From: Ferruginibacter sp.
GTDB taxonomy: Bacteria > Bacteroidota > Bacteroidia > Chitinophagales > Chitinophagaceae
DNA length: 64,000 bases
Assembly (NCBI GenBank): GCA_025352695.1
Contig: JANXSK010000041.1
Location: 29,151 to 93,150 of the forward strand
Direction of reading: 5' to 3'
Shown here piece by piece: positions 23,458 to 60,707 of this stretch. How positions within the stretch are numbered: position 1 is the stretch's first letter; every line of letters begins with the position of its first letter. The notes beneath the pieces were generated by a model. The model was not told the origin of the DNA. It was given only the letters and a program-made list of their open reading frames with translations, and made no database searches. Both the position numbers and the translations under genes were made by a program.

Positions 23458-23632
23458 AAGTTATGTAAGTATTTTATTTCAAAGGCAAGAAATGGGTTAA
23501 TAGGAATCGAGCGTAATATAGTTGTACTAATTCGTTTAAGAAATCAAATCTTTATAGAAAATTTTTTAAAGAAATGGATTCATCTTTTTAAAGTACTTAA
23601 GTTTGTTTCAAAATATTAATAGATCCTTTATG

Positions 23633-24466
23633 AATCAATTTGGAGGTAATTGGACTCAACAAAAAATAGAGATTGTGGCATCTTATGCTAAAGCATACTT
23701 AACTGTTATGAAAGACCGACTTTACTTTAAATTACTTTATTTCGATGGATTTGCTGGTTCGGGAGATATTTTTAAAGAGAACGAATATGACTTTGAGATA
23801 ATAGTAGGTACAACAATGAAGATTTTAGAAATTGATAGTCCTAGATCTTTTGATATGTATTACTTTGTAGAAAAGAATGAAAATAATAAGAAGCAATTAG
23901 AACAAAAAATAAGGATAAAATTTCCACAAAAAGACACACATATTGTTTGTGAGGATTGTAATAAAAAAATGATTGACTTAGCAAATTTTTTGAAAAAAAA
24001 TTTAAACTATAGAGTTTTAGCATTTGTTGATCCTTATGGTATGGAAGTAAATTGGAATTCAATTGAAGCATTAAAAGGTTTGGGAATTGATTTATGGATT
24101 TTAGTACCTACGGGAATAGGAGTTAATAGACTTTTAAAAAATGACGGAAAAATTTCAGATGCATGGCTTCAAAAATTAGAAAAATTTCTTGGAATGAATC
24201 CTAAAAGCATATTGGATTTTTTTTATAAAGAGAAAACAAGTTTTACTCTTTTTGGAGATGAAACTCTTTTTGAAAAAGAAAAAAAGGCAACTGATAAAGC
24301 AGCAAAATTGTATAGAACTAGACTAAATGAAATTTTTGATTTTGTTTCAGAACCTTTCATTATGAAAAACACTACAAATTCGGTGATGTACCATTTCATG
24401 ATGGCTACAAATAATAAGACAGCAATTAAAATTGCAAATGATGTAATTAAACCAAAGTATAAATAA
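23633..24466 (+). CDS. tcmP: Three-Cys-motif partner protein (TcmP-like)
   Basis: NQFGGNWTQQKIEIVASYAKAYLTVMK, LLYFDGFAGSG, FVDPYGMEVNW; immediately upstream of DUF5131 gene; likely start at internal Met (about 23630). Confidence 0.85.
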   Translation, partial: NQFGGNWTQQKIEIVASYAKAYLTVMKDRLYFKLLYFDGFAGSGDIFKENEYDFEIIVGTTMKILEIDSPRSFDMYYFVEKNENNKKQLEQKIRIKFPQKDTHIVCEDCNKKMIDLANFLKKNLNYRVLAFVDPYGMEVNWNSIEALKGLGIDLWILVPTGIGVNRLLKNDGKISDAWLQKLEKFLGMNPKSILDFFYKEKTSFTLFGDETLFEKEKKATDKAAKLYRTRLNEIFDFVSEPFIMKNTTNSVMYHFMMATNNKTAIKIANDVIKPKYK

Positions 24467-24468
24467 TC

Positions 24469-25194
24469 ATGGCAGAATCCTCAATAGAATGGACAGAAAT
24501 GACTTGGAACCCAACAACAGGTTGCGATAAAATATCAGCAGGTTGTAAATACTGTTATGCCGAAATAATGACAAGGCGTTTAATGGCAATGGGCATTGAT
24601 AAATATAAAGAAGGATTTAAAGTAAGAACACACGAAGACTCATTACATACACCGTTTGAATGGAAGAAACCAAAAGTAGTTTTTGTAAATTCCATGAGCG
24701 ATTTATTTCATCCCAAAGTGCCAATAGAGTTTATAAAAAAAGTATTTGAGGTAATGAACAAAACCCCACAACATACTTATCAGGTATTAACAAAAAGAGC
24801 CGATCGCCTTTTTGAAGTACACGAACAATTAAACTGGACAAAAAATATCTGGATGGGTGTTTCTGTTGAAGATAACAGGGTAACACATAGGATTGATTAT
24901 TTGAGGAAGACGAATGCTAAAACAAAATTCCTTTCTTGCGAACCGCTCATTGGTCCTTTACCAAAAATGAATCTTAAAAAAATTGATTGGGTAATTGTTG
25001 GTGGAGAAAGTGGCAGAACTCCAAGGCCAATGGATGCAGACTGGGTACTGAATATTCAAGATCAATGTGCAAAAAATAAAGTAGCCTTCTTCTTTAAACA
25101 GTGGGGCGGAACCAATAAAAAGAAGGCGGGAAGAGAGTTAGGAGGTAACACTTACAATGAAATGCCGTCAAAAAAAATAGTAGTTTCAAATTAG
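24469..25194 (+). CDS. DUF5131 / phage Gp37-Gp68 family protein (three-Cys motif)
   Basis: IEWTEMTWNPTTGCDKISAGCKYCYAEIM; FVNSMSDLFHPKVP; VIVGGESG. Confidence 0.9.
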   Translation: MAESSIEWTEMTWNPTTGCDKISAGCKYCYAEIMTRRLMAMGIDKYKEGFKVRTHEDSLHTPFEWKKPKVVFVNSMSDLFHPKVPIEFIKKVFEVMNKTPQHTYQVLTKRADRLFEVHEQLNWTKNIWMGVSVEDNRVTHRIDYLRKTNAKTKFLSCEPLIGPLPKMNLKKIDWVIVGGESGRTPRPMDADWVLNIQDQCAKNKVAFFFKQWGGTNKKKAGRELGGNTYNEMPSKKIVVSN

Positions 25195-25699: not shown

Positions 25700-26938
25700 T
25701 TAATAAAAGTTTTTATTAAATATTTTATTGTCATCCGTAATAATTTTTAAAAAACATTGCCCGGCTGTTAAATTATTAATAGGTAAAAGTATGCTTGTAG
25801 ATGGAGTGCAAATATGTTCCTTTTTTTGTTGCAGCCTTACACCCATAATGCTATAAATAGTAATCAATGCATTTTCTTCATTTTCAGTGTTTATAGCAAT
25901 AATTAAATTTTCCGAACTATTGTCTTTATATATTTTTATAATCTTTAGTGCACTGCTTTTATTGGAGACACTAATTGTATTTGAATAAAGTAGGTGGTCA
26001 AAATACGTTACTTTTATTCTGTAAAAAATTTTTCCAGTAAGTGGATTTTTATCAATCACCGAATAGTCTGCTAATGGAGTAGTATTCTTAATATTTAAAC
26101 TAAGTGCATTTTTAAAATCTATGCCGTTCGTACTTGTTTACATTTCAAAAAGGGTATTCGGTTCCTGTAATTTCAGTGTGTCATTTAATACTGATGGCAT
26201 TATCGTTTGCTTCGGCACAAAAGTCGGTAATTTTTATAAGAAGTGGTGTTAGGATAAAGATATTTTTATCCCTCACTCTGCCAAATAAAAAACCATGTCC
26301 AATGTCATTAGGATTTATTGCCCTTGTGGGATCCCTTCTATCATCTCGTAGCATATTCAAGCCATCAGATGTTACAAGTTCATACCAAAAATTAATCGCA
26401 AATACCCCAAATTGAATATTGATAGAATCTTTAGTATCAAATAATGCCTTTCGTTGTAAAACACTGTAATCGTTTCTTGGCTGTGTTGTAGTTATATAAC
26501 ACAATGCTCCGCTTGCAGTGATACTGTTATACATTAACCTTAAATTATCCATTGTTTCGGTTATTGAATATCCTGCGCCAACATCATTACTAGGCAAACT
26601 CATAATAACTATATTGGGGCTGTAACTTAAAGCTTTGGTTACATTGTGTGCTACATCAGGGCTTGGTCTTGCGGCAGGTGGTATATAGCTGGATGGCATT
26701 TCCTGGTAGGTAGTATAGCCACCTATTGCTATGTTATAAAAAGTAGTATCAATACCATCTGTCGTATTGGTCTTAAAGCTGGCTTCTAACCTGCCTGCCC
26801 ACGATAATTGATAGCTGCTTTCCCCTAAACCTGCTGCAGTAGAAGAACCCATTATAACAACTTTTTTTGTGCAAAAGAATTGTTTATTAATAAAAACAGT
26901 GTTGCGCAAAGAAGCGGAAGAAGTATTTTAATCTTCAT
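25700..26938 (-). pseudogene. Decayed SGNH/GDSL hydrolase with T9SS C-terminal sorting domain
   Basis: Signal peptide MKIKILLPLLCATLFLLINNSFAQKK is out of frame with VVIMGSSTAAG (poly-A tract); further in-frame stops and a frameshift between the SGNH ORF and the type-A sorting domain. Confidence 0.85.
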
Positions 26939-27524: not shown

Positions 27525-28991
27525 ATGCTTATACCAACTGATAAAATAAAAGAACTTTTTGCAACCTTTTCAACTGCTGAAATTACAGCGATTGACAAGT
27601 TGCCGCCAGCTGGTAGTGAGCGGCATTACTTTCGTCTTTTTACTGTAGATAAATCCTTTATCGCTACTTATGGCGCCAATATAAAAGAAAATGAAACCTT
27701 CCTTTATTTTTCGGAACACTTTAAAAAGAAAGGATTGGCTACAGCACAAATATTTTGTATCAACGAGGAAAAGGATTTGTATTTACAAGAAGATTTTGGT
27801 GATACATCCTTATTGAATAAGCTCGAAGCGCAGGGTTATACAGCTTATGTGTATGATTTATATAAAGCGAGTTTGCAACAGTTAGCGTTACTACAGGTAA
27901 AAGGCCATGATGACCTGAATTATAATAAATGCCTCACCAATACTTCTTTTGGCAAACAAGCTATTATGGCAGATTTGCTATACTTTAAATATTATTTTCT
28001 GGATGCTTTACGCAGGCCATATAATAAACAAAAATTGATTGAAGATTTTGATGCATTGAGTAATTATCTGTCGCATACAGCATATGAATTTTTTATGTTT
28101 CGTGATTTTCAGAGTAGGAATATTATGGTAACTCCTTCTGCTGAAAATAGTTTGGAGGAGGTTGTACATTTTATAGATTACCAAGGCGGCATGAAGGGTG
28201 CGCCGCAGTATGATGTAGCCTCATTATTATGGCAGGCCAAAGCTAATTTACCCGACGAATGGAAACTTAGATTGCTTGAAGACTATATAATTTTTTTAGA
28301 AAAAACCATCAGCGAAACAGTAGACAGAGATGTTTTTAACAGCCAATACAATGGCTATGTGTTAATTCGTATATTACAAGTTTTAGGTGCTTACGGCTTT
28401 CGGGGTTTATTTGAGCGTAAGGCGCACTTCTTAACAAGCATTCCATCAGCACTGCAAAACTTAAAATGGTTTAGTAACAACCACGGTATTGGGATTGCGT
28501 TGCCCGAGTTTAAAAAGGTGTTGGAGATGTGTATTAGCGATGAGGTTATTACTGAGTTTACACCCGTGCAGGCTAACAATGAAACTCTATTGGTTGTTAC
28601 AGTTAATAGTTTTTCATTTATAAAAACTGGGTATCCAGCAGATGAAACAAAAACCGGAGGTGGTTTTGTTTTTGATATGAGGGGTATTTTAAATCCTGGT
28701 AGGTTTGATGACTATAAACATTTATCCGGTATGGATAAACCTGTAAAAGATTTTTTGGAACAACAAACCAAGATCCTAGAATTTTTAAACGGTGTATATA
28801 GTGTTATAGATATTTCAGTACATGACTATATTAAAAGAGGCTTTGAACATTTAACGATAAATTTTGGCTGTACCGGCGGACAGCACCGCAGTGTGTATGC
28901 AGCAGAGGCAATTGCGAGGCATTTAAGAAATAAGTTTAAAGTGAAGATTGTTTTGCAACATACAAACAAACAAAATTGGAAAATAATTTGA
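27525..28991 (+). CDS. Phosphotransferase (APH/AmgK-like) fused to RapZ C-terminal domain
   Basis: N-term ERHYFRLF...FMFRDFQSRNIMV...FIDYQGGMKGAPQYDVASLL kinase motifs; C-term FVFDMRGILNPGR...LSGMDKPVKDFL...INFGCTGGQHRSVYAAEAIARHL. Confidence 0.88.
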   Translation: MLIPTDKIKELFATFSTAEITAIDKLPPAGSERHYFRLFTVDKSFIATYGANIKENETFLYFSEHFKKKGLATAQIFCINEEKDLYLQEDFGDTSLLNKLEAQGYTAYVYDLYKASLQQLALLQVKGHDDLNYNKCLTNTSFGKQAIMADLLYFKYYFLDALRRPYNKQKLIEDFDALSNYLSHTAYEFFMFRDFQSRNIMVTPSAENSLEEVVHFIDYQGGMKGAPQYDVASLLWQAKANLPDEWKLRLLEDYIIFLEKTISETVDRDVFNSQYNGYVLIRILQVLGAYGFRGLFERKAHFLTSIPSALQNLKWFSNNHGIGIALPEFKKVLEMCISDEVITEFTPVQANNETLLVVTVNSFSFIKTGYPADETKTGGGFVFDMRGILNPGRFDDYKHLSGMDKPVKDFLEQQTKILEFLNGVYSVIDISVHDYIKRGFEHLTINFGCTGGQHRSVYAAEAIARHLRNKFKVKIVLQHTNKQNWKII

Positions 28992-29728
28992 AAGCAATCA
29001 TTTTTGCCGCAGGGCTTGGAACTCGCTTTAAACCCTGGACTGACGCACATCCTAAAGCCTTGGCATTGGTAAATGAAAAGAGTTTGTTGCAACGCAACAT
29101 TGAATACCTGCAGCAATACGGTATTACAGATGTAGTGATAAATGTGCACCATTTCCCCAAACAAATAATTGACGCTATTCAGCAAAATAACGGCTGGGGA
29201 AGTAAAATAATTATCAGTGACGAAAGCGACGAAGTGCTGGAAACTGGTGGTGGATTAATGAAAGCAAGGCATTTATTAGAAAGTGAAAAGCCATTCATTT
29301 CTTTAAATGTAGATATTCTTACCAACTTAAATTTAAATAAGCTGATGGCTTTTCATCAACAGCATAAACCATTAGTAAGTTTTGGTGTTACAAATAGAAA
29401 ATCATCCCGTGTTTTATTGTTGGATAATAATAACCAATTGCGTGGTTGGAAAAATTTACAAAGTGGGCAAGAAAATGGGCCACATTTAAAAGCTTTCGAA
29501 AAGGAAATACCAAAACCCGTTCTTCACGCAATGGCGTATAGTTGTGTGGTAATTTATCAGCCCGAAATATTTTCTTTAATCAAACAAAAAGGAAAATTTT
29601 CTATAATGGATAGTTACCTGGATTTAGCTGCCGAACAGATAATTCTTGGCTACGATCATAGCGGTGATCATTTAGTGGATGTGGGTAAACCTGAAAGTGT
29701 TGCAGCGGCAGAAAAAATATTTTTATAA
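28976..29728 (+). CDS. Nucleotidyltransferase (MurU-like NDP-sugar pyrophosphorylase)
   Basis: AIIFAAGLGTRFKPWTDAHPKALALVNEKSLLQRNIEYL; overlaps/abuts the upstream kinase. Confidence 0.88.
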   Translation: MENNLKAIIFAAGLGTRFKPWTDAHPKALALVNEKSLLQRNIEYLQQYGITDVVINVHHFPKQIIDAIQQNNGWGSKIIISDESDEVLETGGGLMKARHLLESEKPFISLNVDILTNLNLNKLMAFHQQHKPLVSFGVTNRKSSRVLLLDNNNQLRGWKNLQSGQENGPHLKAFEKEIPKPVLHAMAYSCVVIYQPEIFSLIKQKGKFSIMDSYLDLAAEQIILGYDHSGDHLVDVGKPESVAAAEKIFL

Positions 29729-53764: not shown

Positions 53765-55444
53765 ATGCCAAATAATATATATGATGCAATTGTTGTAGGC
53801 TCAGGAATAAGCGGCGGATGGGCTGCAAAGGAGCTTACCGAAAAAGGGTTAAAAGTATTAATGCTGGAACGTGGACGTGATATTGAACACGTTAAAGATT
53901 ATGTAAATGCTAATAAGGAAGCATGGGATTTCCCTCATCGTGGCGAGCGTAGCCAGCAAATGATAATGGATTATCCTGTTTTAAAAAGAGATTATCCTTT
54001 AAATGAAACCAACCTTGATTTTTGGGCTAGTGATAAAGACAGTCCGTATACAGAAATAAAACGCTTCGACTGGTTTCGTGGTTACCATGTTGGTGGCCGC
54101 TCATTAATGTGGGGCAGACAAAGTTATCGTTGGAGCGATTTTGATTTTGAGGCAAATCTTAAAGATGGCATAGCTGTTGATTGGCCGGTACGATATAAGG
54201 ATATTGCTCCCTGGTATGATTATGTAGAAAAATTTGCGGGCATCAGTGGTTCAAGAGATGGTTTACCGCAATTACCGGATGGACAATTTATGCCTGCTAT
54301 GGATATGAACATTGTGGAGAAGGATGTGAGTGCAAGAATGAACAAACATTACAACAGTTTTAGAAAAATGATTATCGGCCGAACGGCCAATATAACTGAA
54401 CCATTACCTGGCAGAACCAATTGCCAGTATAGGGATAAATGCTGGCTCGGTTGTCCCTTTGGTGCTTATTTCAGCACCCAATCTTCTACATTACCTGCAG
54501 CAAGGGCAACTGGTAACCTAACATTAAGACCATGGAGTATTGTTACAAAAATTTTATACGATAAAGATAAAAAAAGAGCCACTGGTGTGGAGGTGTTAGA
54601 TGCAGAAGATAACAAAACTTATGTATACAATGCTAAAATAATTTTTCTTAATGCATCTACTTTAAACAGTGCATGGGTATTGATGAATTCTGCTACAGAC
54701 GTTTGGGAAGGTGGTTTAGGAAGTAGCAGTGGTGAATTAGGACATAACATTATGGATCATCACCTTGGTGTTGGAGCAGGCGGAACAGTAGAAGGCTTTG
54801 AAGATAAATATTTATTTGGCCGCAGGGCAAACGGAATTTATGTTCCAAGGTACCGTAACTTATTTGGCGATAAACGAGATTACCTGCGTGGTTTTGGCTA
54901 CCAGGGTGGAGCAAGCAGGGATGGATGGGGAAGAAATATTCCTGAATTTAATATTGGCGGCGAATTTAAAGATGCACTAAGTGAACCTGGCGCATGGTCA
55001 ATGGGTATCGGTGGTTTTGGAGAAACATTGCCTTATCACGAAAATAAAATATCCCTTGATAAAACAAAAAAAGATAAATGGGGTTTAAATGTTCTTGCAA
55101 TGGACATTGAATACAAAGAGAATGAAAAGAAGATGAGAATAGACATGCAGAGAGATGCAGAAGAAATGCTAACCATTGCAGGCGTTAAAAATGTAACCAG
55201 CTATAATGGTGATGGAACCTTGGGCAGAGGAATACATGAAATGGGTTCGGCCCGCATGGGAAGGGATTCAAAAACATCGGTACTTAATAGTTTTAACCAG
55301 GTATGGGATGCTCCAAATGTATTTGTAACGGATGGATCTTTTATGGTATCCGCAGCTTGCCAAAACCCATCTCTTACCTATATGGCTTTTACCGCAAGAG
55401 CTGCCGAGCATGCAGTAAGTGAATTAAAAAAAATGAATTTATAA
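53765..55444 (+). CDS. GMC family oxidoreductase, copy 1
   Basis: YDAIVVGSGISGGWAAKELTEKG; CQYRDKCWLGCPFGAY; GRGIHEMGSARMG; NVFVTDGSFMVSAACQNPSLTYMAFTARA. Confidence 0.92.
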   Translation: MPNNIYDAIVVGSGISGGWAAKELTEKGLKVLMLERGRDIEHVKDYVNANKEAWDFPHRGERSQQMIMDYPVLKRDYPLNETNLDFWASDKDSPYTEIKRFDWFRGYHVGGRSLMWGRQSYRWSDFDFEANLKDGIAVDWPVRYKDIAPWYDYVEKFAGISGSRDGLPQLPDGQFMPAMDMNIVEKDVSARMNKHYNSFRKMIIGRTANITEPLPGRTNCQYRDKCWLGCPFGAYFSTQSSTLPAARATGNLTLRPWSIVTKILYDKDKKRATGVEVLDAEDNKTYVYNAKIIFLNASTLNSAWVLMNSATDVWEGGLGSSSGELGHNIMDHHLGVGAGGTVEGFEDKYLFGRRANGIYVPRYRNLFGDKRDYLRGFGYQGGASRDGWGRNIPEFNIGGEFKDALSEPGAWSMGIGGFGETLPYHENKISLDKTKKDKWGLNVLAMDIEYKENEKKMRIDMQRDAEEMLTIAGVKNVTSYNGDGTLGRGIHEMGSARMGRDSKTSVLNSFNQVWDAPNVFVTDGSFMVSAACQNPSLTYMAFTARAAEHAVSELKKMNL

Positions 55445-55467
55445 TTATAATCCGTTTCAATTGCTTT

Positions 55468-57210
55468 ATGCAATCGAAGCCACAAAAAGTAAATATGCCG
55501 CAGGATTCAACCAAGATTAACAACAAAGCCGACATACAAAATACCTACGATGCAATTGTTGTGGGTTCAGGTATCAGCGGAGGCTGGGCAGTAAAAGAAC
55601 TTACTGAAAAAGGATTAAAAGTTTTATTGCTTGAACGTGGTCGTGATATTGAACACGTAAAAGATTACGTAAATGCTAACAAAGAAGCATGGGATTATCC
55701 GCACAGGGGTAAACGTACACAGGAAATGATAAAAGAATATCCTGTGTTAAAAAGAGATTATCCTTTAAATGAAACCAACCTTGATTATTGGGCAAGCGAT
55801 AAAGATAGTCCTTACACGGAGGTAAAGCGTTTTGATTGGTTCCGTGGTTACCACATGGGTGGTCGTTCATTAATGTGGGGCAGACAAAGTTACCGGTTGA
55901 GTGATTTTGATTTTGAAGCCAATCTAAAAGATGGGGTTGCAATAGACTGGCCAGTTCGTTATAATGAAATAGCTCCCTGGTACGATTATGTTGAAAAATT
56001 TGCTGGTATCAGTGGATCAAGAGATGGTCTTGCACAATTACCAGATGGGCAATTTATGCCAGCGATGGATATGACCATTGTAGAAAAGGATGTTGCGGCA
56101 AGAATTAAAACACATTACAAAGGTAAAAGATCAATGATTATTGGGCGTACAGCTAATATCACCGAACCATTGCCAGGAAGAACCAATTGCCAGTATAGAA
56201 ATAAATGCTGGTTGGGTTGCCCGTTTGGCGCTTATTTCAGTACGCAATCCTCTACATTGCCTGCTGCTCAAAAAACAGGTAATCTTACGGTTCGCCCCTG
56301 GAGTATCGTAACAAAAATTTTGTACAATAAAGATAAAAAAAGAGCAACTGGTGTAGAAGTATTGGATGGCGAAAACAATAAAACCTACTTATACAATGCT
56401 AAAATAATTTTCCTGAATGCCTCTACTTTAAATAGTGCCTGGGTATTGATGAATTCTGCCACAGATGTTTGGCAAGGCGGACTTGGAAGCAGCAGCGGTG
56501 AATTAGGTCATAATATTATGGATCATCATTTAGGTGTTGGTGCCGGCGGACATGTAGAAGGCTTTGAAGATAAATATACTTTTGGCCGCAGGGCTAATGG
56601 TATTTACATTCCAAGATACCAGAATTTATTTGGCGACAAACGGGATTACCTGCGTGGCTTTGGTTACCAGGGTGGTGGTACAAGAGAAGGTTATAGCCGT
56701 TCTGCAGAAGAAATTTCTTTAGGGGCAGATTTAAAAGATGCTTTATCAGAACCAGGTTCATGGACAATGAATATTGGTGGCTTTGGCGAAACATTGCCTT
56801 ACCATGAAAACTTTGTAACGCTGGATAAAACTAAAAAAGATAAATGGGGGCTCAATGTTTTATCGATGGATATTGAATACAAAGAGAATGAAAAAAAGAT
56901 GCGTAAAGACATGCTTGCTGATGCCATCGAAATGCTGGAAGCTGCCGGTGTAAAAAATGTAAAAGGCCGTGAAGGTGACGGAACGTTGGGAAGAGGTATT
57001 CATGAAATGGGGTCTGCCCGCATGGGCAAAGATGCAAAAACATCGGTACTCAATAGTCACAATCAACTATGGGATGCAACCAATGTTTTTGTAACCGATG
57101 GCTCATTTATGACATCAGCCGCGTGTGTAAATCCTTCATTAACTTACATGGCATTTACAGCAAGAGCAGCAGATTTTGCTGTAAACGAATTAAAAAAGGG
57201 TAATCTCTAA
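55468..57210 (+). CDS. GMC family oxidoreductase, copy 2
   Basis: Near-identical motifs to copy 1; internal ATG at 55495 also possible. Confidence 0.92.
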   Translation: MQSKPQKVNMPQDSTKINNKADIQNTYDAIVVGSGISGGWAVKELTEKGLKVLLLERGRDIEHVKDYVNANKEAWDYPHRGKRTQEMIKEYPVLKRDYPLNETNLDYWASDKDSPYTEVKRFDWFRGYHMGGRSLMWGRQSYRLSDFDFEANLKDGVAIDWPVRYNEIAPWYDYVEKFAGISGSRDGLAQLPDGQFMPAMDMTIVEKDVAARIKTHYKGKRSMIIGRTANITEPLPGRTNCQYRNKCWLGCPFGAYFSTQSSTLPAAQKTGNLTVRPWSIVTKILYNKDKKRATGVEVLDGENNKTYLYNAKIIFLNASTLNSAWVLMNSATDVWQGGLGSSSGELGHNIMDHHLGVGAGGHVEGFEDKYTFGRRANGIYIPRYQNLFGDKRDYLRGFGYQGGGTREGYSRSAEEISLGADLKDALSEPGSWTMNIGGFGETLPYHENFVTLDKTKKDKWGLNVLSMDIEYKENEKKMRKDMLADAIEMLEAAGVKNVKGREGDGTLGRGIHEMGSARMGKDAKTSVLNSHNQLWDATNVFVTDGSFMTSAACVNPSLTYMAFTARAADFAVNELKKGNL

Positions 57211-57245
57211 TTTTTAAAATCATAGTATCTAATTAACAATAATTT

Positions 57246-58958
57246 ATGCCAGGCGATTCAACCCAAATTAATAATAAGGCGGTAAAGCAAAACACCTACG
57301 ATGCAATTGTAGTTGGCTCCGGTATAAGTGGAGGCTGGGCTGCAAAAGAATTGTGTGAAAAAGGGTTGAAAACATTGGTATTGGAACGGGGTAGAAATGT
57401 TGAGCACATAAAAGATTATACAGATACAACAAAAGATCCTTGGGAACTAACACATCATGGTGAACATACCCAACAGGATAGGGTTAATAGTCCAACGCAA
57501 AGTAAATGCTATGCCTGGAATGAAGTGTCAAAAAAGTACTTTGTAAACGATCTTGAAAATCCTTACAACCAGGTAAAACCTTTTGATTGGGTACGGGGTA
57601 ATCATGTGGGAGGCAGAAGTTTAACCTGGGGTAGACAGTGTTACCGGTGGAGCGATGTAGATTTTGGAGCTAATGCAAAAGACGGCCATGGCGTTGACTG
57701 GCCAATCCGATATAAAGATATTGCGCCCTGGTACGATTATGTAGAGCCATTTGTTGGTATAAGTGGATCAATTGAGAATTTACCACAGTTGCCCGATGGA
57801 AAATTTCTGCCACCAATGGAAATGAATTGTATTGAAAAACAGGTTGCAGAAAGAATAAAGAAAAACTTTGCGGATGGCAGAAGAATAATCATTGGTCGTT
57901 CGGCCAATCATACAGCAAAAGTTGGTGATCGTGGCCCATGTCAGTATAGAAATAAATGTCATGAAGGTTGCCCTTTTGGTGGTTATTTTAGCAGTAATTC
58001 TGCCACACTTCCTGCCGCAGCAAGAACAGGCAATATGACGCTGCGCCCCTTTTCTGTAGTAGAAGAGGTACTCTATGATAAGGATAAAAAAAGAGCTATT
58101 GGTGTACGTATTCTGGATACAGAAACAATGAAGACGCAAGAATATTATGCTAGGATTATATTTTTAAATGCATCAACTTTAGGAACTACACATATATTAC
58201 TGAATTCTGTTTCGGATGCTTTTCCTCATGGGTTGGGTAATTCAAGTGAACAGGTTGGACATAATTTAATGGATCATCATTATGGCGTAGGGGCATCCGG
58301 CGAATCGGATGATTTTAGTGATCAGTATGTTTTTGGCAGAAGGGCCAATGGTATTTATGTTCCAAGATTTAGAAACATAAACGAAACAACTAAGCAAAAA
58401 GAGTATGTTCGTGGTTTTGGTTACCAGGGTGGTGGTGGCCGTGGAAGAATAAGTATTGAAGACGGATTAGGGGGAGAGTACAAAGACTCCTTAACAGAAC
58501 CTGGTAAATGGACATTTGGCATAGGCAGCTGGGGGGAACATTTGCCTTATTATGAAAATAAAGTAACCCTTAATAAAGATAAAAAAGATAAATGGGGACT
58601 ACCTACTTTAGACATAGATTGTGAGTTTAAAGACAATGAAAAAGCAATGCGGAACGATATGAAAAATAGTGCGGTAGAAATGCTGGAGAAAGCTGGTTTA
58701 AAAAATATTACCAGTTATGACAGTGCTCCAGCCCCGGGTTTTTGCATACATGAAATGGGAACAGCAAGAATGGGGCGTAACCCAAAAACATCTGTGTTGA
58801 ATGGTAACAACCAACTGCATGAGGTAAAAAATGTTTTTATAACTGATGGTTCCTGTATGGCATCAAGTGCCTGTCAGAATCCATCAATTACTTATATGGC
58901 TTTAACTGCAAGAGCCTGCGATTATGCAGTAACTGAGTTAAAAAAAAGGAATCTTTAA
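57246..58958 (+). CDS. GMC family oxidoreductase, copy 3
   Basis: MPGDSTQINNKAVKQNTYDAIVVGSGISGGW; CQYRNKCHEGCPFGGY; FCIHEMGTARMG. Confidence 0.92.
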   Translation: MPGDSTQINNKAVKQNTYDAIVVGSGISGGWAAKELCEKGLKTLVLERGRNVEHIKDYTDTTKDPWELTHHGEHTQQDRVNSPTQSKCYAWNEVSKKYFVNDLENPYNQVKPFDWVRGNHVGGRSLTWGRQCYRWSDVDFGANAKDGHGVDWPIRYKDIAPWYDYVEPFVGISGSIENLPQLPDGKFLPPMEMNCIEKQVAERIKKNFADGRRIIIGRSANHTAKVGDRGPCQYRNKCHEGCPFGGYFSSNSATLPAAARTGNMTLRPFSVVEEVLYDKDKKRAIGVRILDTETMKTQEYYARIIFLNASTLGTTHILLNSVSDAFPHGLGNSSEQVGHNLMDHHYGVGASGESDDFSDQYVFGRRANGIYVPRFRNINETTKQKEYVRGFGYQGGGGRGRISIEDGLGGEYKDSLTEPGKWTFGIGSWGEHLPYYENKVTLNKDKKDKWGLPTLDIDCEFKDNEKAMRNDMKNSAVEMLEKAGLKNITSYDSAPAPGFCIHEMGTARMGRNPKTSVLNGNNQLHEVKNVFITDGSCMASSACQNPSITYMALTARACDYAVTELKKRNL

Positions 58959-58994
58959 TTTTATTGAATGATAGTATTTAAGTAACAATAATTT

Positions 58995-60707
58995 ATGCCA
59001 GGCGATTCAACGCAAATTAATAATAAGGCGACAACGCAAAATACCTACGATGCAATTGTAGTAGGCTCTGGCATTAGTGGTGGCTGGGCATCAAAAGAAT
59101 TAACGGAAAAGGGATTAAAAGTCTTAATGCTGGAACGTGGGCGTAATTACAAACACATAAAAGATTATGCTACAGCAAGTAAATATCCATGGGATTTTGA
59201 GCATAGGGGTCATACCACCGAAAAACAAAGAGAGCGTTATCCGGCAGTTCATCGTGGTTGGGCTGCAAACGAAGCTGTAATAAATAGTTGGGTTGATGAA
59301 AAGGAATGCCCTTATACTGAGGTAAAGCCCTTTACCTGGTGGCGCAGTTACCAGTTGGGAGGCCGGTCTGTTTTATGGGGTAGGCAGAGCTACCGCTGGA
59401 GTGATATTGATTTTGAAGCAAATGCTAAAGATGGTATTGCCATTGATTGGCCTATTCGATACAAAGACCTTGCACCTTGGTATGATTATGTAGAAAAATT
59501 TGCCGGCATTAGTGGTTCTGCAGAAGGGCTGGCACATTTACCGGATGGTCAATTTTTACCTCCGATGGATTTAAATATTGTGGAGAAGGATGTGGCTGCA
59601 AGAATAAAACAACAGTTTAAAAACCGTCATATGATTATTGGTCGTGTGGCAAATTTAACAGCTCCCTTACAGGCAAGAACGCAATGCCAATATAGAAACC
59701 GTTGTTGGGAAGGTTGTCCGTTTGGAGGTTATTTTAGTACACAATCTTCAACCTTACCAGCTGCAAAGGCAACAGGTAATTTAACCGTCAGGCCTTTTTC
59801 TATTGTAACAAAAATTATTTATGATAAGGATACAAAAAAGGCAACAGGGGTAGAAGTGCTGGATGCAGAAACGAATAAGACGTATGAATTTTATAGTAAA
59901 ATTGTATTTTTAAATGCCTCTACTTTAAACTCGGCCTGGGTGTTAATGAACTCCGCAACGGATGTTTGGAAAGAAGGGTTAGGAAGCAGCAGTGGCGAAC
60001 TTGGGCACAACATTATGGATCACCATTATAATCTTGGAGCCTCAGGTACGGTAGAAGGATATGATGATGTTACTACTTTTGGCAGAAGAGCGAATGGTTT
60101 TTATATCACCAGGTTTGCTAACCTATATGGTGATAAAAGAGATTACCTCCGGGGCTTCGGTTACCAGGGTAGCGCATCAAGACAAGGGTGGAGCAGAGAA
60201 ATTGCTGAACTAAATATTGGAGCTAACTTTAAAGAAGCACTTTCTGAACCTGGCTCGTGGACAATCGGCGCTACTGGTTTTGGAGAAATTCTTCCTTACC
60301 ACGAAAACAAAATTACGCTTGATAAAGCCATTAAAGATAAATGGGGTTTGCCGGTACTTGCTATGGACGCCGAAATAAAAGAGAATGAATATAAAATGCG
60401 CAACGATATTAAGTTAGATTTAGTGGCTATGTTTGAAGCCGCAGGTGTAAAAAATATTACTACCTACGATAAAGGGCACTCAATGGGGCATGGCATTCAC
60501 GAAATGGGTGCAGCCAGAATGGGAAAAGATCCAAAAACTGCTGTTCTTAATAGCCACAACCAACTGTGGGATTGTAAAAATGTTTTTGTTACTGATGGGG
60601 CTTGTATGACTTCATCTGCCTGCCAAAATCCATCGTTAACTTACATGGCATTAACAGCAAGGGCAGCAGATTTTGCTGTTATCGAATTAAAAAAAGGAAA
60701 TTTATAA
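58995..60707 (+). CDS. GMC family oxidoreductase, copy 4
   Basis: MPGDSTQINNKATTQNTYDAIVVGSGISGGW; CQYRNRCWEGCPFGGY; HGIHEMGAARMG. Confidence 0.92.
   Translation: MPGDSTQINNKATTQNTYDAIVVGSGISGGWASKELTEKGLKVLMLERGRNYKHIKDYATASKYPWDFEHRGHTTEKQRERYPAVHRGWAANEAVINSWVDEKECPYTEVKPFTWWRSYQLGGRSVLWGRQSYRWSDIDFEANAKDGIAIDWPIRYKDLAPWYDYVEKFAGISGSAEGLAHLPDGQFLPPMDLNIVEKDVAARIKQQFKNRHMIIGRVANLTAPLQARTQCQYRNRCWEGCPFGGYFSTQSSTLPAAKATGNLTVRPFSIVTKIIYDKDTKKATGVEVLDAETNKTYEFYSKIVFLNASTLNSAWVLMNSATDVWKEGLGSSSGELGHNIMDHHYNLGASGTVEGYDDVTTFGRRANGFYITRFANLYGDKRDYLRGFGYQGSASRQGWSREIAELNIGANFKEALSEPGSWTIGATGFGEILPYHENKITLDKAIKDKWGLPVLAMDAEIKENEYKMRNDIKLDLVAMFEAAGVKNITTYDKGHSMGHGIHEMGAARMGKDPKTAVLNSHNQLWDCKNVFVTDGACMTSSACQNPSLTYMALTARAADFAVIELKKGNL

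Follow-up and report, generated by a model that had tools for sequence, protein, structure and literature searches.

Here we describe a gene that joins, in a single open reading frame, an AmgK-like kinase domain of the APH fold to the C-terminal domain of RapZ (RapZ-C), and that is directly followed by a gene for a MurU-like nucleotidyltransferase (NTase). Both genes lie in a stretch of 64,000 nucleotides from Ferruginibacter sp., hereafter the window. The module very probably constitutes an anabolic MurNAc salvage pathway, with a predicted substrate and a predicted reaction, and the complete explanation, a MurNAc salvage kinase gated by its RapZ-C domain, has in our judgement roughly even chances. 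The parts are of kinds already known, and their combination is a variant of AmgK-MurU salvage. In a few genomes, the trio of kinase, RapZ-C and NTase appears to be the sole known route left to a basic cell-wall building block.

The fused gene and its neighbour

The features of the module in the window are the following:

27525-28991, + strand: kinase-RapZ-C fusion gene (ATG at 27525, TGA at 28989-28991; product of 488 aa)
27525-28484, + strand: AmgK-like APH-fold kinase domain, residues 1-320 (profile matches, invariant catalytic columns, structure match)
28485-28559, + strand: linker, residues 321-345, mainly helical (helices 327-336 and 339-345; predicted structure)
28560-28991, + strand: RapZ C-terminal domain, residues 346-488 plus stop (PF22740, alignment, predicted structure)
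28869-28892, + strand: RapZ-C pocket loop CTGGQHRS, residues 449-456 (alignment); G392 replaces E. coli H190
28988-29728, + strand: MurU-like sugar-1-phosphate nucleotidyltransferase gene (likely start TTG 28988; NCBIfam models)

An earlier note on this DNA had proposed the fusion of kinase and RapZ-C beside a MurU-like NTase, and it is borne out: one open reading frame of 488 aa holds both domains, the NTase comes next, and the motifs GCTGGQHRSVYAAEAIA and AAGLGTRFKPWT are found as had been claimed. In Pfam, RapZ-C (PF22740) scores 106 bits against a cut-off of 27 over residues 357-479 of the fusion, and APH (PF01636) 26.3 bits against 23.2 over residues 141-255. Among the NCBIfam models, that of RapZ is the best on the fusion protein (95.8 bits, far below its equivalog cut-off), and two AmgK models give 46.3 bits against a cut-off of 500 and 36.3 against 550, the kinase domain thus falling short of AmgK equivalog level. 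The catalytic residues D194, N199 and D218, a set that includes the Mg-binding Asp, are invariant in an alignment of 56 fusions, and the top structure match of the domain is 3csv, an APH-fold protein of Silicibacter (TM 0.76 by target). The APH fold, a feature of AmgK, is therefore present in the fusion (PF01636, 3csv), and the domain is predicted to be an anomeric MurNAc kinase, phosphorylating C1 of MurNAc/GlcNAc.

The model of the full-length protein (pLDDT 92, pTM 0.82) fits a defined placement of its two domains relative to each other. An origin of the fusion by chance or by an assembly artefact was rejected, given that the architecture is shared by 27 of the 36 genomes with RapZ-C and by nearly all of 48 further loci.

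The likely start of the NTase, TTG 28988, overlaps the TGA of the kinase by 4 bases (TTGA); TTG 28976, the mechanical start of its open reading frame, is probably not the real one. An identical overlap occurs in 10 of 68 loci, the one in the window counted, and the gap between the two genes is of 10 bases or less in 31 of the 68. As relatives overlap at the same place, the translational coupling put forward from the letters alone is plausible.

Evidence for MurNAc salvage

MurQ is the catabolic etherase, and NamZ is an exo-N-acetylmuramidase. Outside a distant clade, f17, a strong MurQ (E below 1e-40) was found in 17 of 37 kinase genomes versus 196 of 196 kinase-less ones (Fisher p 4e-19, with related genomes counted as independent). 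Within family f16, none of the six kinase genomes has MurQ, and all ten kinase-less genomes have it. A mutual exclusivity of AmgK and MurQ has been reported for proteobacteria (PMC5371407). The genomic link of AmgK with MurU and with the absence of MurQ is hence also seen here, yet MurQ coexists with RapZ-C in 17 of 36 genomes.

A second line of evidence comes from genomes in which MurA and MurB are apparently both absent. There are four of them, 99-100% complete (G115, G132, G216 and G268, with loci L017, L026, L015 and L002, respectively), and all four keep the fusion and the NTase; the assembly of G132 is a single contig. In the tree, G115 stands apart from the other three, which group with one genome that has MurA/MurB, so MurA and MurB were likely lost at least twice. 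For genomes without the two enzymes the module would be indispensable, and independent of fosfomycin. These four organisms are candidate MurNAc auxotrophs. Furthermore, MurA alone is absent from G180, and the genome of the window itself gives no MurB match, perhaps through a gap in an assembly of 246 contigs.

Finally, in clade f17 (L128, L129, L130 and L131) the kinase and the NTase form an operon with NamZ and a sodium symporter, and NamZ is present in 35 of the 37 genomes tested. The symporter of that operon is a candidate MurNAc importer. TIGR00901, tried as a model for AmpG, had no match in the window's own genome. Altogether, the replacement of MurQ, the retention of the module in genomes without MurA/MurB and the distant NamZ-linked pair lend good support to the AmgK/MurU anabolic route that the earlier note had suggested.

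It could be argued that kinase and NTase, working by the same logic, make an NDP-sugar from another salvaged sugar (e.g., heptose, mannose or GlcNAc). Indeed, neither kinase nor NTase reaches a MurNAc-specific cut-off: the best NCBIfam models of the NTase are two MurU models, at 126.9 and 97.6 bits where the equivalog cut-offs are 250 and 370, and archaeal GlmU and HddC models also match at 61-67 bits. However, MurU is the best model for the NTase whether the form is fused, split or that of f17, and the loss of MurQ as well as the MurA/MurB-less genomes point to MurNAc, which makes another substrate improbable. Conserved neighbours were tried as a further clue to the substrate and rejected, as outside the module they are lineage-specific and metabolically mixed.

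Distribution and history of the module

The sample, confined to the phylum Bacteroidota, comprises 297 genomes spread evenly over it. PF22740 is present in 36 of them, and each of the 36 also carries a close homologue of the kinase, even where the genes are scattered. The two domains are fused in 27 of these genomes; in seven the module is split into adjacent kinase, RapZ-C and NTase genes, and in two it is dispersed. RapZ-C is a separate gene in six f4 genomes and in G031, the f4 order being kinase, RapZ-C, NTase in the five loci examined directly (5/5); in G180 and G272 it is not linked to the kinase. Locus L077 has the split form without a detected NTase.

All checked module genomes that lack an adjacent NTase (G017, G013, G034, G131, G128, G180 and G272) encode an orthologue elsewhere; in 16 module-less genomes no full-length match was found, two of them having weak partial ones. 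On account of this co-occurrence, non-adjacent NTases included, kinase, RapZ-C and NTase act as a single functional set. In the kinase tree, several forks of which are weak, the split forms are nested inside the fused ones; the fusion would therefore probably have come first and then broken at least twice. Since RapZ-C became a gene of its own at least twice and is unlinked in two genomes, it need not be covalently attached to the kinase.

One locus, L121 (6090-7801, in G009), holds a kinase-NTase pair without RapZ-C, though the other kinase-bearing members of f16 have the domain. The same genome is also devoid of AnmK, NamZ and a strong MurQ.

The pocket of RapZ-C

The model of the RapZ-C domain (pLDDT 94) superposes on the E. 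coli RapZ-CTD structures 8b0j/5o5o with a TM of 0.81, and no significant match besides RapZ was found among structures. In an alignment of 81 RapZ-C sequences, which takes in split and dispersed copies, G448-C449-T450-G451-G452, H454-R455-S456-V457, F383-D384, R386, N390-P391-G392 and H479 are invariant, and D404 nearly so. The pocket loop, Cys-Thr-Gly-Gly-x-His-Arg-Ser, is a CX5RS loop of the phosphatase type, kept in all 81; in the model, C449, R455 and S456 sit at a strand-loop-helix turn (strand 97-104 and helix 110-126 of the domain). Of the E. coli pocket set (H190, C247, T248, G249, H252 and R253), five residues are invariant, and the place of H190 is taken by Gly in 81 of 81 sequences.

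E. coli RapZ-CTD binds GlcN6P (PMC7073468). His190 is one of its pocket residues, and RapZ is inactive once it is replaced by Ala; neither C247A nor C247S retains activity, a catalytic -SH having been suggested by the authors, and in the crystal with GlcN6P the ligand has probably been chemically transformed into a product (PMC9841335). With His190 invariably Gly, the identity of the E. coli ligand is not transferable to the domains described here. As far as conservation can tell, the invariant Cys suggests chemistry, and not binding alone.

Two parts of RapZ are missing. The RNA-binding tail was not found, the C-terminus reading VKIVLQHTNKQNWKII in place of the consensus RxRxKNxQxRHRTxxKRK, and the Walker ATPase half (PF03668) is absent from 20 of 20 genomes tested; in the fusion, the kinase stands in its place.

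Gating or catalysis by RapZ-C

In the explanation that we favour, the kinase domain would convert MurNAc and ATP into MurNAc-1-phosphate, which the MurU-like neighbour would turn into UDP-MurNAc. RapZ-C, judged by its pocket, would bind an amino-sugar 6-phosphate and would gate the kinase, in one direction or the other, according to the supply of amino-sugar phosphate. A kinase regulated by an amino-sugar phosphate, as the earlier note had suggested, is plausible, and gating is the most likely role for the domain, though we hold it with some reserve. The binding of GlcN6P by the E. coli domain (PMC7073468) and the pTM of 0.82 of the fused model speak for it; the Gly at the position of H190 and the copies of RapZ-C that are separate, or unlinked, speak against it.

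Rated slightly below gating, and tentative, is the possibility that RapZ-C is a cysteine-dependent sugar-phosphate phosphatase working at the MupP step, converting MurNAc-6-phosphate to MurNAc for the fused 1-kinase and then MurU; the module would then unite phosphatase, kinase and NTase. In all 81 sequences the Cys, Arg, Ser and His of the CX5RS turn do not change, nor does D384, and the dead cysteine mutants and the probably transformed ligand of E. coli RapZ (PMC9841335) are in line with such a chemistry. In addition, a commentary of 2020 pointed out that the RapZ pocket resembles the loop of Cys-dependent tyrosine phosphatases, and put forward hydrolysis (PMC7199280); phosphatase activity has been reported for YvcJ, a relative of RapZ (PMC7525490). 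RapZ-C is present in 26 of 26 genomes with kinase and AnmK, and of the 65 kinase genomes that lack AnmK, 55 are without RapZ-C; clade f17, where NamZ would give free MurNAc, is without RapZ-C, and in f4 the domain is a gene of its own between kinase and NTase.

Nevertheless, the association with AnmK is carried largely by the single clade f17. Over all genomes it disappears (26/36 versus 183/261, p 0.85, kinship ignored), and AnmK is missing from ten genomes that have RapZ-C, of which five belong to f16. AnmK was consequently rejected as a discriminating test of a MupP role, being confounded by clade. Moreover, the overall fold differs from that of a tyrosine phosphatase, and no general acid was identified. 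A global phosphatase fold for RapZ-C was likewise rejected, the PTPN22 rows having a probability of 0.01-0.02.

The view of the RapZ pocket as a phosphatase loop is already published (PMC7199280); its extension to the MurNAc-6-phosphate step in a fused kinase is proposed by the present analysis. A broader version, in which RapZ-C domains would be Cys-dependent amino-sugar-6-phosphate phosphatases, a non-HAD replacement of MupP in Bacteroidota from which E. coli RapZ sensing was derived, seems rather unlikely. That RapZ-C gives only a surface for oligomerisation or for RNA or protein docking, without a ligand role, is very improbable: the E. coli domain does dimerise and bind RNA and proteins (PMC7073468, PMC9841335), but the domains described here lack the enterobacterial RNA-binding tail, and few stretches of them are as conserved as the pocket loop.

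Relation to known systems

The closest known system is AmgK-MurU of Pseudomonas, which works with MupP. The present module resembles it in the APH-type kinase adjoining a MurU-like NTase and in the anticorrelation with MurQ, as in proteobacteria (PMC5371407). It differs in that the kinase carries RapZ-C, the sequences are far below the equivalog cut-offs, and about half of the module genomes also have MurQ. E. coli RapZ and B. subtilis YvcJ share the C-terminal domain and its loop CTGGxHRS, but the Walker half, the enterobacterial tail and H190 set them apart. Cys-dependent tyrosine phosphatases have in common the CX5R(S) loop, placed where a strand passes into a helix and known here by sequence and model, in a different fold. 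For Tannerella forsythia, a MurNAc auxotroph, the absence of MurA/MurB has been described and AmgK/MurU proposed as the replacement route; the relevant sections of these reports do not mention a RapZ-C fusion (PMC7670621, PMC5790795).

In the open-access literature searched, neither the fusion nor the three-part module was found described, and AmgK and RapZ were not found mentioned together. A co-mention of RapZ and 'aminoglycoside phosphotransferase' was rejected as a prior description, the source being, by its title and abstract, a gene-finding study with one mention of each. The fusion architecture is probably present in protein databases, without a function.

The module places RapZ-C, known mainly as a metabolite sensor linked to sRNA, inside an enzyme of cell-wall salvage. 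Its small proteins make two questions testable: the essential cysteine of RapZ-C, and the making of UDP-MurNAc from salvaged MurNAc in Bacteroidota.

Other observations in the window

At 23603-25194 (+ strand) lies an adjacent gene pair that matches the PADLOC candidate defence pair PDC-M41A (413 bits) and PDC-M41B (428 bits); its second gene is a DUF5131 and also matches PDC-M30B. Between 25700 and 26909 (- strand), a GDSL-like hydrolase reading frame (26181-26909) stands beside a same-strand one of 119 aa (25700-26059), and the two are possibly one broken gene. Further on, 53765-60707 (+ strand) holds four tandem GMC oxidoreductase genes of 559-580 aa.
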